Shown here piece by piece: positions 45,295-52,110 of a DNA stretch of 64,000 nt. The first letter of the stretch is position 1. The number at the start of each line of letters is the position of its first letter. The DNA comes from Bacteroidales bacterium. GTDB lineage: Bacteria > Bacteroidota > Bacteroidia > Bacteroidales > UBA10428. Position numbers and translations under genes: made by a program. The stretch spans positions 1 through 64,000 of the forward strand of contig JAFGKY010000062.1 of assembly GCA_016928305.1 (NCBI GenBank). Reading direction: 5' to 3'. The notes under the pieces are model-generated. The model did no database searches. It was not told where the DNA came from and saw only the letters and a program-made list of their open reading frames with translations.

Positions 45295-46068
45295 TTACTT
45301 TTTTAAATCCTTAATAAAATTCCTGATATTTTCATCCCTGGCTCCTTCTTTTTCCAGGATTTTTATAAAGGCACTGCCGATAATAGCTCCCTGGGCATAT
45401 TTGCAAGCCTCTGCAAAAGTTTTTCGATTCGATATCCCAAATCCTATCAATCGGGGATTTTTAAGGTTCATGCGGTTTATTCGTTCAAAATAGGCTATCT
45501 GTCCGGGTGAAAAACTTTCTTTTACTCCCGTTGTTGAAGCAGCTGATACCATGTATACAAAACCTCCGCTTGCCTCATCAATACGACGTATACGTTCTTC
45601 ACCAGTCTGTGGTGACATTAAAAAAACAGCATGCAGGTCATACTGCACAAATATTTGCCGGTATTCTTCAAGGTAAAGATCCAGCGGAAGATCGGGAAGA
45701 ATAACACCGTCAATTCCAACCTCATGGCATTGCCGACAAAAGTTGTCTATGCCAAACTGCATGACCGGATTGAGGTACCCCATCATAAGCAAGGGGGCAG
45801 TAACTTCCTTCCGGATTTCCTTAAGCTGTTGCATCAGTCGTGTAAGACTCATACCATTCTTAAGCGCTTTATCACTGCTTTTCTGTATTACCGGACCATC
45901 AGCCATGGGGTCTGAAAAAGGTATGCCAATTTCGATCATATCGGCACCCGCCCCGGCAAGCGTTTTTATTATATCGGCAGTTGAATCGAGCGACGGATGA
46001 CCTGCAGTGAAGTAAACTGAAAGTATATCCGAAGGTTTATCTTGAAAAAGCTGGTTTATTCTGTTCAT
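45295..46068 (-). CDS. trpA: Tryptophan synthase alpha subunit
   Basis: Cleaves indole-3-glycerol phosphate to indole and glyceraldehyde 3-phosphate. The 257-residue TIM barrel shows YFTAGHPSLDST, the catalytic glutamate in MIEIGIPFSDPMADGPVIQ (residues about 40-58) and the aspartate in DGVILPDLPL. It is the last gene of the trp operon and is separated from trpB by 145 bases that hold a repeat. Whether it is cotranscribed through that gap is not certain. Confidence 0.95.
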   Translation of the reverse strand: MNRINQLFQDKPSDILSVYFTAGHPSLDSTADIIKTLAGAGADMIEIGIPFSDPMADGPVIQKSSDKALKNGMSLTRLMQQLKEIRKEVTAPLLMMGYLNPVMQFGIDNFCRQCHEVGIDGVILPDLPLDLYLEEYRQIFVQYDLHAVFLMSPQTGEERIRRIDEASGGFVYMVSAASTTGVKESFSPGQIAYFERINRMNLKNPRLIGFGISNRKTFAEACKYAQGAIIGSAFIKILEKEGARDENIRNFIKDLKK

Positions 46069-46213
46069 AGTTAATTTTCGATTTGTTGATTATGGATTCA
46101 AGGTTCATGGTTCACGGTTCACAGCTCACCGCATAATTTATTTTCAACTGTGATCCGTCAACTGTAAACATTATATGGTCTTTGTTCTTGCCTTAGGATC
46201 TTTGATTCTATAG
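46069..46213. repeat. trpB-trpA gap with seven-base-period repeat
   Basis: Includes AGGTTCA TGGTTCA CGGTTCA CAGCTCA at 46101-46128, four heptads with the pattern NNGTTCA (last one diverged). Downstream, TCAACTGTAAACATT resembles the same part of the gap before holA. No promoter was recognised. Confidence 0.5.
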
Positions 46214-47398
46214 TTAAATCTCCTCCATATACTTAATGTATGTCGCCATGTCTTTGTCTCCCCTCCCCGATAGGTTGATCACCACCACATCATCCGGTTT
46301 GAATCTGTATTTGTCCAGTAATGCAAGTGCATGAGCGGATTCAAGAGCGGGTATGATACCTTCGAGTTTAGTAAGCCGGAAAGCTGCTTTAAGAGACTCT
46401 TCATCGGTAGCATTTTCAAAAATTGCCCTGCCGGACTTGTAAAGGTGGGAATGAATGGGCCCGATCCCCGGATAGTCGAGACCTGCAGAAATGGAATAGG
46501 GTTCAATTATCTGGCCATCTGTTGTTTGCATAAGCATAGTCTTGCTGCCGTGCAATATACCGGGACGTCCCAATGCCATAGTAGCAGCTGATTCACCGCT
46601 GTCAATTCCTTTTCCTGCAGCTTCCACAGCTATCAGTCTGACATTCGTATTATCCAGATAATGGTAAAATGATCCGGCCGCATTGCTTCCGCCACCAACG
46701 CAGGCAATGATGTAGTTGGGATTTTCGTTTCCCGTTTGTTCCTTCAGCTGCCACTTCATTTCTTCACTAATTATGGCCTGCAAACGGGTAACGAGATCAG
46801 GATAAGGATGAGGGCCTACAACGGAACCGATTATGTAATGTGTATCCTCGGGATTGTTAATCCAGTCCCTTATAGCCTCGTTGGTAGCATCCTTAAGTGT
46901 CATATTACCGCTAAATACGGGGATTACATCAGCTCCCAGCATTTTCATCCGCAAGACATTGGGGGCCTGACGTTCCACATCGAGTTTCCCCATATAAACA
47001 ATACATTTTAAACCCATTAACGCGCACACGGTGGCCGTTGCAACACCGTGTTGCCCGGCGCCGGTCTCTGCAATGATTCTTGTCTTGCCAAGTCGCCTCG
47101 CAATGAGGATTTGACCAACGGTATTGTTAATCTTGTGTGCACCCGTGTGATTCAAGTCTTCACGCTTAAGAAAAACCTGTGTATTATAGAATTCCGATAA
47201 CCTGACAGCAAGATATAAAGGAGAAGGCCGTCCAACATAATCCTTTAGCATTTTTCTGTATTCCTGTTGAAAATCCTTTTCATGCATTATTGCAAGATAA
47301 TTATCCTGCAATTCTTTCACATTCGGATAAAGCATTTCGGGAACAAAAGCCCCGCCAAATTCCCCATAGAATCCGTTGTTATTTACATCAAAATTCAT
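46214..47398 (-). CDS. trpB: Tryptophan synthase beta subunit
   Basis: PLP enzyme joining indole and serine. The 394-residue protein starts NNNGFYGEFGGAFVPEML and contains the catalytic lysine in HTGAHKINNTVGQ (residues about 82-94) and the phosphate-binding loop CVGGGSNAAG. It begins three bases after the trpF stop (47402 to 47398), so the two are translationally coupled. Confidence 0.97.
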   Translation of the reverse strand: MNFDVNNNGFYGEFGGAFVPEMLYPNVKELQDNYLAIMHEKDFQQEYRKMLKDYVGRPSPLYLAVRLSEFYNTQVFLKREDLNHTGAHKINNTVGQILIARRLGKTRIIAETGAGQHGVATATVCALMGLKCIVYMGKLDVERQAPNVLRMKMLGADVIPVFSGNMTLKDATNEAIRDWINNPEDTHYIIGSVVGPHPYPDLVTRLQAIISEEMKWQLKEQTGNENPNYIIACVGGGSNAAGSFYHYLDNTNVRLIAVEAAGKGIDSGESAATMALGRPGILHGSKTMLMQTTDGQIIEPYSISAGLDYPGIGPIHSHLYKSGRAIFENATDEESLKAAFRLTKLEGIIPALESAHALALLDKYRFKPDDVVVINLSGRGDKDMATYIKYMEEI

Positions 47399-47401
47399 CG
47401 G

Positions 47402-48028
47402 TTATATTTTTTTAACATCCTTAATAAACTCACAAATCTTAAAAACATCTTTTATGCCCGGACTGATCTCAAAACCACTGTTAATATCAACAGCAAATAA
47501 CGATGCGTGTTTTAATGCTGAAATTGCAGCTATATCTTCGGGCAATATTCCACCACTCAGAAAAAAAGGTTTGGTATACCTGAATTCCTCCATTACCTTC
47601 CAGTTGAACTTTTCACCAGTGCCTCCATACAGCTCCGATCTCGTATCAAACAGAAAATATTCGCACAAAGGCAAATAGGGTTCTGTTATAACAAAATCCA
47701 TATTTTTGTCCACTCGGAAGGATTTAATTACTCCTATCCTTTTTGCCTTTATGACTGCAACTGATGCCGGATCCTCATCCCCGTGAAGCTGGACGAAATC
47801 GAGATTGTAACTTTCAACCAACCGCATAATGGTATCGGGATTTTCATTAACAAATACACCGACTTTATTTATATAGGGTGGTATTCTTCGCAATAACCGG
47901 CTATCAAATTTTTCACCCACAAAGCGTACGGATTGCCGGTAAAAAATAAATCCCAGAAAATCGGGTTTACAGGCCACTATTTCGCGAATGTTTTGACGGT
48001 TTTTCAGACCGCATACCTTTACTTTCAT
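47402..48028 (-). CDS. trpF: Phosphoribosylanthranilate isomerase
   Basis: Isomerises phosphoribosyl anthranilate in the pathway. The 208-residue barrel begins MKVKVCGLKNRQNI (catalytic Cys) and ends AVDINSGFEISPGIKD, with the catalytic Asp in the VQLHGDEDP strand region. The start overlaps the trpC stop by four bases (ATGA type). Confidence 0.95.
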   Translation of the reverse strand: MKVKVCGLKNRQNIREIVACKPDFLGFIFYRQSVRFVGEKFDSRLLRRIPPYINKVGVFVNENPDTIMRLVESYNLDFVQLHGDEDPASVAVIKAKRIGVIKSFRVDKNMDFVITEPYLPLCEYFLFDTRSELYGGTGEKFNWKVMEEFRYTKPFFLSGGILPEDIAAISALKHASLFAVDINSGFEISPGIKDVFKICEFIKDVKKI

Positions 48029-48816
48029 TGTATCTGTATTAATTGTTTTACAAAGGATGCAAATGCTGTTGCCGGATCAGGATCACACATAAAATGTTCA
48101 CCTATCAGAAAACCGTTATAACCATGAACCTGCAAATGCTTTACGATCCGAGGCGAATTAATGCCACTTTCAGCGATTTTCAAGAATTCAGGTGGTAAGA
48201 GAGGCGCCATTCTTACGGATCGTTCAACATCGACAGAAAAATCCCTGAGATCACGGTTATTGACACCGATTACCGATATAGCCTCATTGATCATTTTAAT
48301 TTCAGTAACATTATGGATCTCCAGGATAACCTGCAAATGAAGAGAACGGGCCAGATCAGCCAGTTTTTTTATTTTCGCCTTGTCCAATACAGCTGCTATC
48401 AGCAGAATCGCATCAGCACCCAGAGCTTTCGATTCAATTACCTGATATTCGTGTATTATAAAATCTTTCCGTAAAATGGGAATGGGATTTATTTCCCGTG
48501 CCCGTTTCAGGTCTTCGGGTGAACCTCCAAAATAGGTTGAATCTGTAAGGACTGACAATGCCGAGGCCCCAGCCCGGAAATAGCCCGTAGTGACTTCTTC
48601 AACGGTTGCATAAGCGTTAAGGATACCTTTTGAGGGGGATCTCCTTTTAAACTCAGCAATAATTCCGGTTCTTTCAGGATTCAACAACGCCCGTGTAAGA
48701 GAAACCGTTTTTCTGGAAAAGCCGGGCAGCCTTTTCAACTCTTCAGGAGATGTTTTTTCCATTTTCACGGACAGCTCCTGTTGTTTATGTTTGATTATGC
48801 TGTCTAACAGGGTCAT
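48025..48816 (-). CDS. trpC: Indole-3-glycerol phosphate synthase
   Basis: Closes the indole ring. The 263-residue barrel shows IIAEFKRRSPSKG (residues about 51-63), DSTYFGGSPEDL and IGVNNRDLRDF (about 174-184), plus AESGINSP. It overlaps trpD by four bases and trpF by four, showing tight coupling in the operon. Confidence 0.96.
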   Translation of the reverse strand: MTLLDSIIKHKQQELSVKMEKTSPEELKRLPGFSRKTVSLTRALLNPERTGIIAEFKRRSPSKGILNAYATVEEVTTGYFRAGASALSVLTDSTYFGGSPEDLKRAREINPIPILRKDFIIHEYQVIESKALGADAILLIAAVLDKAKIKKLADLARSLHLQVILEIHNVTEIKMINEAISVIGVNNRDLRDFSVDVERSVRMAPLLPPEFLKIAESGINSPRIVKHLQVHGYNGFLIGEHFMCDPDPATAFASFVKQLIQIQ

Positions 48817-49808
48817 GATTGCATCGCCATTAGTTTTGTAAATGATGCCAGCGCTTTACCGCTTTCGAGTGATTCGCGGGCCAGTGAAATACATTTATGC
48901 AAAGGCCTACCGGGAAAATAACAATGCAATGCCAGAGCTGAATTGGCGATGACAACCATGTGTTGCGCTGTTGTACCCTTCCCTTCAAGGATATTCCTGA
49001 AAATCGAGGCTGCTTCTTCCAGGGTTGCTCCACCTATAAGTGCTTTGCCTTCTACTCTGCTGAATCCAAGTGATTCAGGCGACATAATATGTTCGGCCCC
49101 GTTAACAATCAATTTAACATCACCTGTGAGAGAAAATTCATCATAGCCATCAAGACTGTGTACAATAATAAATTCTTTCTCCGATTGCTGGTAAAGATAA
49201 TTATATAATCTTGCCAGTTCGAGGCTAAAAACTCCAATAAGTTGCTTTTTAGGGAAACTCGGATTTATCATGGGCCCAAGGACATTTATGAACGTTTTGA
49301 TTTTCAATGCCTTTCTAACCGGTGCCACATTTTTCATTGCCGGATTAAAAAGTGGAGCATGCATATAGCAAACACCGGTTTTCTCAATTTCCTTTTTTAG
49401 TTTGTCAATGTCAGTCGAGAATTTATATCCGAAATATTCCATCATATTTGAGGATCCACTGATTGAAGAGACACCATAATTCCCGTGTTTGGCAACGAAG
49501 GCACCGGCTCCAGCCACTACAAACGCAGATAGTGTAGATATATTGAAAGTGTCCTTATTATCTCCCCCGGTACCGCAGACATCAATGGTATCAAAACCGG
49601 ACAGATCAACTTTCAGGCATAGGTTGAGCAAAGCATCACGAAAACCGCTGAGCTCATCAACGGTAATGCTCCTCATTAAATAAACCGTCAGAAAGGCAGC
49701 TATTTCAGCCTCGCTGTAAGCACCTTTGGCAATATTGGTTAACACTTCTTCTGCTTCTGCACGGGAAAGTGTTTTATGCTCAAACAGATAGTTCAGTACT
49801 TTTCGCAT
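48813..49808 (-). CDS. trpD: Anthranilate phosphoribosyltransferase
   Basis: Transfers ribose 5-phosphate from PRPP to anthranilate. The 331-residue protein has the PRPP loop CGTGGDNKDTFNIST (residues about 78-92), then KHGNYGVSSISGSSNM and the later FINVLGPMINPS region. It is separate from trpG rather than fused. It follows trpG after a 54-base gap and overlaps trpC. Confidence 0.96.
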   Translation of the reverse strand: MRKVLNYLFEHKTLSRAEAEEVLTNIAKGAYSEAEIAAFLTVYLMRSITVDELSGFRDALLNLCLKVDLSGFDTIDVCGTGGDNKDTFNISTLSAFVVAGAGAFVAKHGNYGVSSISGSSNMMEYFGYKFSTDIDKLKKEIEKTGVCYMHAPLFNPAMKNVAPVRKALKIKTFINVLGPMINPSFPKKQLIGVFSLELARLYNYLYQQSEKEFIIVHSLDGYDEFSLTGDVKLIVNGAEHIMSPESLGFSRVEGKALIGGATLEEAASIFRNILEGKGTTAQHMVVIANSALALHCYFPGRPLHKCISLARESLESGKALASFTKLMAMQS

Positions 49809-49862
49809 TCGATAGTATGTTTAAAATGAATTATTTGATAAATGGCGGAACAGGATTACTTT

Positions 49863-50435
49863 TCAAAGGTTAAGCCAGTTTTTAATTATATCAAGTCCGT
49901 TTCTCGTTAGTATTGATTCAGGATGGTACTGCACTCCCTTCACATCATATTGCCTGTGACTTACGCCCATGATCAGTCCTTTTTCATCGATACACGTAAC
50001 TTCAAGGCATTCCGGCAGGTTCCCGGGATTAATGACCCAGGAGTGATATCGCCCGGCTTCAAACTCACGGGGAATACCAATATATAGCGGATCATCCGTA
50101 CGTGTGATGATAATACGGCTGGCAACACCGTGGTATACTTTATTAAGATTGAGCAGTGTTCCTCCAAATGCTTCACCGATAGCCTGGTGACCCAGGCAGA
50201 CACCGAGTATGCTTTTCGATGCTGCAAAATGCCGGATGAGATCAAGACAAATACCGGCTTCAACCGGAATGCCCGGACCCGGTGAAAGCAGTATCTTATC
50301 GTAATCCGCAATATCTTCCAGTGCCAGTTCATCGTTACGGAATACCTTCAAGGGATCACTTGTAAGTTTTCCGATATATTGAACCAGGTTATAGGTAAAG
50401 GAATCGTAATTATCAATGACAAGTATTTTTTTCAT
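49863..50435 (-). CDS. trpG: Anthranilate synthase glutaminase subunit
   Basis: Supplies ammonia from glutamine to TrpE. The 190-residue class I amidotransferase has the nucleophile in GVCLGHQAIGEAFGG (residues about 78-92) and the His-Glu pair in VQYHPESILT (about 168-177). It starts MKKILVIDNYDSFTYNLVQYI. Sequence alone also fits PabA, but the trp context decides. It lies 54 bases after trpE. Confidence 0.95.
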   Translation of the reverse strand: MKKILVIDNYDSFTYNLVQYIGKLTSDPLKVFRNDELALEDIADYDKILLSPGPGIPVEAGICLDLIRHFAASKSILGVCLGHQAIGEAFGGTLLNLNKVYHGVASRIIITRTDDPLYIGIPREFEAGRYHSWVINPGNLPECLEVTCIDEKGLIMGVSHRQYDVKGVQYHPESILTRNGLDIIKNWLNL

Positions 50436-50489: not shown

Positions 50490-51890
50490 TTATTGAATTT
50501 CGGCGGCCATTTCAATAGCTTTTTTCAGGGCTCCCAGCTTGTTATTGACTTCCTGGAGTTCGCTTTCTTCTCGTGATACAGCAACAATACCGGCACCTGC
50601 CTGATAATACAGATGATTTTTTTTACTCAGGAAAGTACGTATCAGGATTGCATGGTTGAAGTTGCCATTAAGATCAAGAAAACCGATTGCACCGCCATAA
50701 TAGCCACGGGCCTGATTTTCATATGTATCAATTAACTGCATGGCTTTATATTTCGGAGCTCCGGAAAGCGTGCCGGCAGGAAAGGTGGCGGTCATCATAT
50801 CCACAATTCCGGATGACTTGTTAAGTTCACCGGAAACCGTTGAAACCATATGCAGCACATGCGAATAATATTGAATTTCACGATAGCTTTCCACTTTAAC
50901 ATTGCCGGAATGGCGGCTTAAATCATTTCTGGCCAGGTCAACCAGCATAATATGTTCAGCATTTTCTTTTAAATCAGTTGATAACTGCTGTGCCAGCAGT
51001 TTATCTTTTTCGTCGTCTCCGGTCCTTACAAAAGTGCCGGCAATCGGATTAATGATAGCCTTTCCCTTTTGTATTTTAAGTTGCGCTTCGGGGGACGATC
51101 CGAAAATCTTGTAATCGCCATAATCAAAGAAAAACAGATATGGAGAAGGATTAATAGAACGCAACGCCCGATATACATTAAATTCATCACCTGAGAATCG
51201 CTGGGAGAACTGCCGTGACATTACAATCTGAAACACATCACCCCGGTAGCAATGTTCTTTTCCCCGGGTTACCATTTTCATATACTCTTCATCAGTGATA
51301 TTGGAATGCTCTTCCCCTTCTGGCTGAAAAGGATAGGACGCATAATTCCGGCTCACCAGCAGGGATTCAATTTTCTCACCTTCATTTGATTCACCATCAA
51401 ACTGATTTTCAACGATATAGAGAACATTCTGAAAATGGTTTATAGCAATAATGTATTTGTAAAAACCGTAATGGATATCGGGAATTTTATACTCCTCCTT
51501 AATCGTAGCGTTCAACTTTATTTTCTCAAAATAACGGACTGCATCATAAGCTGTATAACCAAAAAATCCGTTTACCGGTATTTTTTCGTCTGTCTTCAAT
51601 GGTTTGAAGCAATGCATAAATTCATTAAACCTTTTTTCAAAAGAATCCAGTTGAGCCTGGTCAATAGATCCATCCGGATAGGTGGCGGTATAAACACCAT
51701 TGTCAACCAGGAAAGTAGCCACCGGACCTGAGCATATAAAGGAATAACTGTTTTCATTGCCATGATAATCAGAGCTTTCCAACAATATACTGTTGGGATA
51801 GATATCCCTGATCTTCAGATAGATGCTTACCGGTGTTATCGTATCTGCCAGTAAACGTTTTGAAGTGGTTCGAAAAGTGAATGTTTTCAT
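50490..51890 (-). CDS. trpE: Anthranilate synthase component I
   Basis: First committed step from chorismate. The 466-residue protein has a conserved C-terminal chorismate-binding domain, with QIVMSRQFSQ, SPSPYLFF-like NPSPYLFFFDYGD, GTFVRTGDDEKD, ARNDLSRHSG and AGTLSGAPKYKAM in order. The N-terminal part matches the tryptophan-feedback domain, including an ESSDYHG segment in place of the usual LLES element. The ATG at 51890 lies 43 bases after the attenuator stem. Confidence 0.96.
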   Translation of the reverse strand: MKTFTFRTTSKRLLADTITPVSIYLKIRDIYPNSILLESSDYHGNENSYSFICSGPVATFLVDNGVYTATYPDGSIDQAQLDSFEKRFNEFMHCFKPLKTDEKIPVNGFFGYTAYDAVRYFEKIKLNATIKEEYKIPDIHYGFYKYIIAINHFQNVLYIVENQFDGESNEGEKIESLLVSRNYASYPFQPEGEEHSNITDEEYMKMVTRGKEHCYRGDVFQIVMSRQFSQRFSGDEFNVYRALRSINPSPYLFFFDYGDYKIFGSSPEAQLKIQKGKAIINPIAGTFVRTGDDEKDKLLAQQLSTDLKENAEHIMLVDLARNDLSRHSGNVKVESYREIQYYSHVLHMVSTVSGELNKSSGIVDMMTATFPAGTLSGAPKYKAMQLIDTYENQARGYYGGAIGFLDLNGNFNHAILIRTFLSKKNHLYYQAGAGIVAVSREESELQEVNNKLGALKKAIEMAAEIQ

Positions 51891-51932
51891 AGTTATCTTG
51901 TATTTCGTTTATAATGAGCTTGATTTTTAAAC

Positions 51933-51968
51933 AGAAACGGCCTACCGTGAGTACGATAGGCCGTTTCT
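51933..51968 (-). terminator. trp attenuator terminator hairpin
   Basis: A perfect 12-bp stem: 51933-51944 pairs with 51957-51968, with a 12-base loop (51945-51956). In the minus direction it is followed by GTTTAAAAA, a weak U-tract. Loop bases 51944-51951 can alternatively pair with 52000-52007, at the end of the leader peptide reading frame. Confidence 0.75.
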
Positions 51969-52000
51969 ATATTGTTAATTTATACAATAGGAGTATGGTC

Positions 52001-52057
52001 TCACGGTTTAATGAGGAAACTGCTGAACCACCACCAAGTTGTATAAATTTTTCTCAT
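52001..52057 (-). CDS. trpL: trp operon leader peptide with three tandem Trp codons
   Basis: An 18-codon frame, MRKIYTTWWWFSSFLIKP, on the minus strand ending in TGA at 52001-52003. Residues 8-10 are three consecutive tryptophans encoded by TGG TGG TGG. It starts about 15 bases after the predicted transcription start of the promoter at 52080-52110 and precedes trpE. The A-rich bases before the ATG are the normal start context in this phylum. Its product is probably not functional; its translation would be the sensor. Confidence 0.82.
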   Translation of the reverse strand: MRKIYTTWWWFSSFLIKP

Positions 52058-52079
52058 TTTTTATTTACCATTTTGAATG

Positions 52080-52110
52080 CAAATATAAAGGATGAATCGA
52101 AAAAAACAAA
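52080..52110 (-). promoter_or_regulatory. trp operon promoter
   Basis: In the minus direction: TTTG (52110-52107), a 19-base spacer, TATATTTG (52087-52080). This is an exact fit to the phylum's consensus. The -33 element is just after the clpX stop at 52114. Predicted start of transcription near 52072. Confidence 0.8.

Follow-up and report, generated by a model that had tools for sequence, protein, structure and literature searches.

A putative ribosome-mediated trp attenuator in a Bacteroidales genome, with a candidate antiterminator directed at the tip of its terminator

Known trp leaders and the elements of the locus

In the trp attenuator of E. coli, tandem Trp codons in a leader peptide, a 1:2 helix and a terminator act together, and the position of the ribosome serves as the sensor. 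Leaders associated with trp genes have also been described in Bacteroidetes, where they are represented by the Rfam family RF01692 (Bacteroid-trp), which originates from the work of Weinberg et al. (2010), the main text of which names Bacteroid-trp solely in a row of its Table 1 (PMC2864571). A passage of a further paper places a Bacteroid-trp leader upstream of the trp operon of Flavobacterium psychrophilum, compares this leader with that of E. coli and also names TAnnTTTG as the Bacteroidetes promoter (PMC6414381), and a passage of another study treats the four Rfam amino-acid attenuator families that it used as mainly gamma-proteobacterial (PMC3766115).

The locus considered here lies on the minus strand (52110-51933) of the window, by which we mean the whole stretch of 64,000 nucleotides that was analyzed. 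In a sequence-only reading it had been proposed to be a complete trp attenuator, consisting of a TTTG-N19-TATATTTG promoter, an 18-codon leader peptide with three tandem TGG codons, two pairings of 11 and 8 bp, and a terminator. All of the elements named in that reading are present, base for base, and they are listed below together with the evidence for each of them and with the genes that follow.

52107-52110, minus strand: -33 element TTTG of a Bacteroidota-type promoter (sequence; TTTG-like letters occur in a T-rich stretch before other leaders)
52080-52087, minus strand: -7 element TATATTTG (sequence; similar letters precede many leaders)
52001-52057, minus strand: leader peptide ORF of 18 codons, MRKIYTTWWWFSSFLIKP and stop (sequence; recurs in relatives)
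52039-52049, minus strand: segment A (AATTTATACAA), the 5' strand of the A:A' helix, within the codons preceding the Trp run (sequence, fold)
52028-52036, minus strand: three tandem Trp codons, TGG (sequence)
52000-52007, minus strand: segment B (ACCGTGAG), which holds the leader stop; proposed 5' strand of the antiterminator (sequence, relatives)
51977-51987, minus strand: segment A' (TTGTATAAATT), the 3' strand of the A:A' helix (sequence, fold, RF01692 model)
51933-51968, minus strand: predicted terminator hairpin of 16 bp with an ACUC loop (minimum-energy fold; pairs changed on both sides in relatives)
51944-51951, minus strand: segment B' (CTCACGGT), terminator loop and 3' shoulder; proposed 3' strand of the antiterminator (sequence, fold, relatives)
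51923-51932, minus strand: weak U-tract 3' of the stem, GTTTAAAAAT (sequence)
51955-52083, minus strand: match to Rfam RF01692, Bacteroid-trp (47.3 bits, gathering score 49, E 8e-5)
50490-51890, minus strand: trpE, anthranilate synthase component I, first gene of the operon (NCBIfam match)
45295-50435, minus strand: trpG, trpD, trpC, trpF, trpB and trpA, the remaining genes of the operon

TTTG is the Bacteroidota -33 promoter consensus. In the window it is separated from TATATTTG by a spacer of 19 nt, and the promoter (52110-52080) begins 3 nt past the stop codon of clpX. The leader ORF reads from 52057 to 52001, with its Trp codons at 52036-52028 and its TGA stop at 52003-52001, within segment B, and the genes downstream of it follow in the order trpE, G, D, C, F, B, A. 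The best NCBIfam match of trpE is TIGR00564 (E 2.5e-130), with 435.5 bits that fall under the cut-off of 517.7. A five-codon ORF, ATGGTAAATAAAAAATGA, is also found on the minus strand at positions 52054-52071 of the window, and its stop overlaps the start of the leader as ATGA, an arrangement that would make a coupling between the two possible.

The predicted intrinsic terminator sits between the leader and trpE. Its arms, AGAAACGGCCTA and TAGGCCGTTTCT, lie inside 51968-51933, and a stretch of 40 nt that includes two further outer pairs folds with -28.4 kcal/mol; the fold in the window has a z of -7.3, and none of 200 shuffles was equally stable. The sequence-only reading had described this hairpin as a stem of 12 bp whose loop supplies one strand of the 8-bp pairing. 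The hairpin itself was borne out, but the fold makes 16 bp with a loop of 4 nt, and B' is thus composed of the loop and the 3' shoulder and not of the loop alone. The same reading had expressed a reservation regarding the U-tract, and the letters GTTTAAAAAT behind the stem are indeed weak, yet the U-tract is lengthened by the final letters of the stem (TTTCTGTTT). The weak U-tract of the window and the short distance of 42 nt between the 3' end of the hairpin and the trpE start could be taken to indicate that this is a conserved RNA of a non-transcriptional kind, with a hairpin that governs mRNA stability or translation of trpE. However, long T runs are present directly after the corresponding stem in many relatives, and the trpE start codon lies outside all of the helices described here, which makes this explanation very unlikely.

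The match to RF01692 spans model positions 1-131 with an E value of about 6e-5 to 8e-5. With 47.3 bits, the leader of the window misses the gathering score of this family (49 bits); at the Rfam gathering thresholds a tRNA was the sole finding in the window, and apart from RF01692 all other Rfam matches in the window, among which there was no T-box, were far below their gathering scores. The locus and the family have in common the leader with Trp codons, the enclosing A:A' helix, the initial letters of the terminator stem, the trp genes that follow and their occurrence in Bacteroidetes (Bacteroidota). In view of this near-threshold match and of the published Bacteroid-trp leaders, a trp leader in Bacteroidota is not new. 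The consensus of RF01692 runs from the leader through the A:A' helix into the 5' arm of the terminator and ends after the initial letters of this arm; the model contains neither a full terminator nor the B:B' pairing, whereas the leader of the window has both. Under strict filters, RF01692 matches were detected in 7 of 149 genomes of the class, including the genome under study, in a genome sample that differs from the trpE sets described below. In the literature that was searched, mostly open-access main texts without supplements, no trp antiterminator that has the terminator loop as its target was found to be described. Candidate attenuators in Bacteroidetes/Chlorobi are reportedly described by Vitreschak et al. 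in 2004 (FEMS Microbiol Lett), and the B:B' antiterminator may already be described in this work or in that of Lopatovskaya et al. from 2010.

Conservation of the leader and of its pairings

The upstream regions of trpE were collected from three sets of genomes. Of the 60 genomes of the order set, 39 yielded trpE, the genome under study among them, and 38 regions were used (L013, at a contig edge, was dropped). In the class set it was found in 63 of 197 genomes, again including the genome under study, at 63 places besides its own, of which 59 were used; those from G112, G124, G219, and G064 were omitted because they were partial or at a contig edge. From the named genomes, the best 80 of 568 trpE candidates were kept, with the exception of L084. 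The 176 upstream regions were reduced to 169 by the removal of exact duplicates and to 163 by the removal of six near-duplicates. In the 500 nt preceding trpE, the scan recorded any ORF that starts with ATG and encodes W-W or W-x-W.

Relatives had been expected to carry WWW-type leaders before trpE, and a leader with a Trp run is present in 149 of the 163 distinct regions, with WWW in 110 of them; a few of the 149 (e.g., L029 and L031) look spurious but were kept in the count. By set, such leaders were observed in 33/38 regions from the order, 50/59 from the class and 66/66 from the named genomes, and before the removal of near-duplicates they were present in 154 of 169 regions. The sampled leaders are spread over records of Bacteroidia, Flavobacteriia and Cytophagales. 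In contrast, the same scan found no leader on the opposite strand (0/169), and before hisG it recorded 2/30 (WWW in none). In one locus (L057, of G233) the WWW leader is kept before a trpE match with four in-frame stops (two TGA and two TAA), which may point to a pseudogene or to an error of the assembly.

Fourteen of the 163 regions have no Trp leader. For three of these (L066, L160, and L167, of G158, G128, and G188, respectively) an RF01692 match is present further upstream. The leaders of these genomes (L181, L182, and L185) are thus seen 1.25 to 1.3 kb before trpE, where they probably stand before another trp gene. They carry TAA in place of TGA in segment B (CGTAAG), and in two of the three a matching change in the loop was noted by eye.

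The A:A' pairing is complete in the window (11/11). Its co-variation was determined in an alignment (A1) of 28 sequences picked by hand from the nearer relatives, from which L006, L021 and the duplicate L074 were left out. In this alignment, 75.3% of the A:A' cells are paired and changes on both sides are seen in 8 of the 11 pairs; the 11-bp pairing of the sequence-only reading co-varies in near relatives. Of the 15 pairs of the terminator stem, 7 have changed on both sides, and 94.8% of the stem cells are paired. When A:A' and B:B' are taken together, a change on both sides is seen in 34 cells; shuffles give 18.6, and versions with slid segments give 16 to 29. The observed count of pairs with such changes is 10; a version slid by +1 reaches 11, but with 29 as against 34 cells and with a lower score. 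Among 500 shuffles of this alignment, 9 reach 10 pairs and 23 reach the pair-type count. The A:A' signal weakens in the wider set, with a peak mean z of -0.73 at 24 nt before the terminator.

The B:B' pairing is likewise complete in the window (8/8). Segment B is almost invariant in the 28 near relatives, and changes on both sides occur in only 2 of the 8 B:B' pairs. Because of this near-invariance the alignment says little on B:B', and comparisons of loops across families were used instead. Across families the letters differ while the pairing is kept, as in GAGAGGT:ACCTCTC (L028), GTCGTGA:TCACGAC (L041), TCGGGAG:CTCCCGA (L147), TTGTGTTAAG:CTTAACACAA (L038), TGCTGTGTTAAGC:GCTTAACACAGCA (L039), and TTGAATCGG:CCGATTCAA (L053). 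The 8-bp pairing that had been proposed is thus upheld by its completeness and by co-variation across families, while its co-variation among near relatives is slight.

For a quantitative comparison, L006 was skipped due to a run of N, which left 153 leaders, and 151 of these entered a test in which the loop of each leader was compared with permuted ones. The mean B:loop energy was -9.54 kcal/mol with the leaders' own loops vs. -6.66 kcal/mol (sd 0.25) with permuted loops (88 distinct loops), and none of 10000 permutations was as low. When the loops were clustered with increasing strictness into 54, 42, 27, and 16 representatives, the z values were -8.8, -7.0, -5.4, and -3.8, respectively. Taken leader by leader, a p of 0.05 was reached by 96 of the 151 and missed by 55. 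In 114 non-redundant leaders, chosen by hairpin score, spacing and redundancy, a contiguous B helix of a set strength was present in 87, whereas 20 rounds of loop shuffling gave 20.9 (sd 3.5), with a maximum of 31. This strong helix is missing in 27 of the 114; it was found in 25/26 leaders from the order, 25/45 from the class and 37/43 from the named genomes, and the class at large is therefore less uniform than the near relatives. That the B:B' match arose by chance, for which a rough estimate by hand gives about 8% for a single 8-mer match in a leader of this kind, was rejected in view of its recurrence and co-variation.

Sixteen loci contain a second leader with its own terminator before trpE, located 136-214 nt ahead of the WWW leader (L094, L096, L097, L099, L101-L104, L106, L107, L109, L110, L114, L115, L118, and L122), and 13 of these are titled Prolixibacteraceae or its genera. 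The second leader ends in NTIWLPWWGLLT in 11 of the 16, and its DNA is nearly invariant in most of them. Its 3' part pairs with the 5' shoulder and loop of its terminator, with matching changes between loci as judged by eye and with no control. In the five loci that were scanned, the second leader had no Rfam match at gathering score. In a different family, tandem WWW leaders are found in L024 (G028) at -325 and -162 before trpE (MNTNRLNNYWWWQF... and MNNSNLHIWWWHNSGIKP).

Ribosome position and the predicted switch

From the letters and their arrangement we infer a transcription start just after TATATTTG, a response to tryptophan, termination at the hairpin and the following order of events. 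A ribosome would load onto the 18-codon leader, and when Trp-tRNA is scarce it would stall at the three Trp codons, covering these and segment A and leaving B free. The free B could then pair with B' at the tip of the emerging terminator, along with a few extra pairs on the 5' side, and this would keep the hairpin from closing at its tip, so that RNA polymerase would continue into trpE. With ample Trp-tRNA, the ribosome would reach the stop codon inside B and cover B, and the terminator could fold. After its release, A:A' together with inner pairs with the Trp-codon region may hide B, in a manner similar to the E. coli 1:2 helix.

The spacing of the segments is in accordance with such a scheme. 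Given the usual ribosome footprints, B is accessible while the ribosome is stalled on the Trp codons and is covered once it stands at the stop codon. In the 87 strong helices, B starts at a median of 19 nt beyond the last Trp codon (21 nt for CCGTGAG in the window), and the starts of 78 of the 87 fall within a single zone of 11 nt, as compared with 43% when the loops are shuffled. In 49 of the 87 strong-B leaders the stop codon is located in or beside B. When the transcript of the window was folded as far as B' with the ribosome masked, the probability of B:B' was 0.99 with the ribosome at the first and 1.00 at the third Trp codon; at the stop it was 0.00, where, as in all leaders with the stop inside B (49/87), the mask covers B by construction, and that of A:A' was 0.74. 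In the 114 leaders, with transcripts likewise cut at B', the expected number of tip pairs was 4.52 when stalled at the first Trp codon as compared with 0.43 at the stop, and the difference was at least 2 in this direction in 83 of the 114 and in the opposite direction in none. Shuffled tips gave 1.82 pairs in the stalled state, and the real tip was above its own shuffles in 95 of the 114. The earlier suggestion that stalling frees the antiterminator strand and completion of the leader covers it is consistent with this predicted folding of transcripts cut at B'.

The leader of the window ends in Pro-TGA with Trp upstream, and TnaC similarly has a Pro-stop end with Trp upstream. A mechanism in which the nascent peptide senses free tryptophan at such a Pro-stop codon was nevertheless rejected and is exceedingly improbable; the sign of its response would be opposite to that needed for a biosynthetic operon, and neither the terminal Pro nor the frame is conserved (Thr in L018 and L019, different ends in L020, L022, and L023), whereas the RNA letters are kept. 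The retention of GTGAG in L020, L022, and L023 in spite of another stop or frame speaks for a role of the RNA over that of the peptide.

With -28.4 as compared with -15.0, the completed terminator greatly exceeds B:B' in stability, and hence B:B' must act either before the 3' arm emerges or as a pseudoknot on the lower stem. In addition, ribosome-free RNA cut at B' also favors B:B' (0.74), and an untranslated transcript must therefore form A:A' first in order to terminate. It is conceivable, although somewhat doubtful, that B:B' is a pseudoknot formed together with the lower terminator stem, which tunes the efficiency of termination and is not an either-or antiterminator. The lower stem of 12 bp has -18.0 kcal/mol on its own and shares a single base with B', and B' extends into the 3' arm of the terminator in 71 of the 87 strong cases; an H-type pseudoknot would use this 3'-arm side of the loop. 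However, a starved ribosome frees B, and a pseudoknot would thus still have to lower termination, and the A:A' helix would cross it.

Position of the target in trp and his leaders

The sequence-only reading had considered the geometry of the antiterminator to be unlike the 2:3 pairing of E. coli. To locate the target of B, an 8-nt target was slid along the terminator, using dinucleotide shuffles as the control for the 114 trp leaders and single-base shuffles for the offset scans of E. coli trp, of his, and of trp vs. his. In the 114 leaders, the mean z was -2.05 at +2 from the loop centre, -1.42 at 0 and -1.52 at +4, i.e., over the loop and 3' shoulder, and in this respect they depart from E. 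coli trp, for which a similar scan peaks at -8 to -6 and thus recovers the known strand 3.

These observations bear upon a plain E. coli-like attenuator, in which the antiterminator would lie on the 5' arm of the terminator and B:B' would be a side product of conserved stop and loop sequences. Some results are in its favor: the fold of the truncated transcript adds pairs on the 5' side (CC:GG and AUA:UAU), the "tip" of the window including both shoulders; the 5' shoulder gives a weak signal (mean z of -0.50 at -6 and -0.62 at -4) and is used by the his leaders of the class and by the tandem upstream trp leader; and in 41 of 111 trp leaders the best target is left of the loop centre. However, further down the 5' arm the mean z is only about -0.1 to -0.3 vs. 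-2.05 at the loop, the loop and B co-vary, and the targets of trp and his leaders differ in position as described below. The peak on the loop and 3' shoulder, with a few added 5'-side pairs in the fold of the window, is not that of an antiterminator strand on the 5' arm, and we regard the E. coli-like arrangement as improbable.

The 27 his leaders of Bacteroidota peak at -6 to -4, in the 5' shoulder, and they match their own terminators better than those of others (-8.87 vs. -7.17, sd 0.36). The best offsets have a median of +1 for trp and -5 for his (Mann-Whitney p 7.9e-7), with the z < -1.5 applied in this comparison being that of the best of 21 offsets and no test alone; exceptions are the 41 of 111 trp leaders already noted and 5 of 28 his leaders with a best target at or right of the centre. 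As a group, the trp type is therefore distinct from the his type in this class. The two have in common a leader, a terminator and an exposed strand that matches the terminator of the same locus, but the his target is the 5' shoulder. The trp leader of the window likewise resembles the E. coli attenuator (trpL; RF00513) in its tandem-Trp leader, 1:2-like helix, terminator and ribosome position as the sensor, but the strand that follows the Trp codons in E. coli is a match to the 5' arm, whereas B matches the loop and 3' shoulder and contains the stop codon.

A leader with a run of H was seen in 26 of 30 hisG loci of the class. The genome under study has a his leader (MIYLMVHLHHHHLP) and terminator before hisG (L218, G000:C3), and also a leader (MRNIIIIVNVLLLVVVIDTPG) and hairpin before ilvD (L234, G000:C38). 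The ilv leader shares with the trp leader a leader ORF and a terminator, and its pairing is apparently with the 5' arm, as judged by eye only. With leaders before trp, his and ilv, this genome seems to use leader attenuation for all three.

Taken together, the conservation of the leader, the co-variation of A:A' and B:B', the position of the target and the masked folding support the proposal that the locus is a ribosome-mediated attenuator; it belongs with RF01692. We assign a probability of about 0.83 to its being a transcription attenuator of trpEGDCFBA with a tip-directed B:B' antiterminator. With a slight preference over other readings, we further suggest that the trp, though not the his, attenuators of Bacteroidota may generally cap the tip of the terminator in a kinetic manner, possibly by a transient pseudoknot on the lower stem, and that such a tip-directed kinetic antiterminator would be distinct from the arm-directed 2:3 switch of enteric bacteria. 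The Rfam model of Bacteroid-trp could gain the terminator and B:B', and the trp and his leaders of one class provide matched natural pairs for testing hairpin nucleation at the RNA polymerase exit. Attenuation is taught from a single geometry, and a trp type that seizes the tip of the terminator beside a his type of the same class that does not would show that there is more than one way of building this switch.
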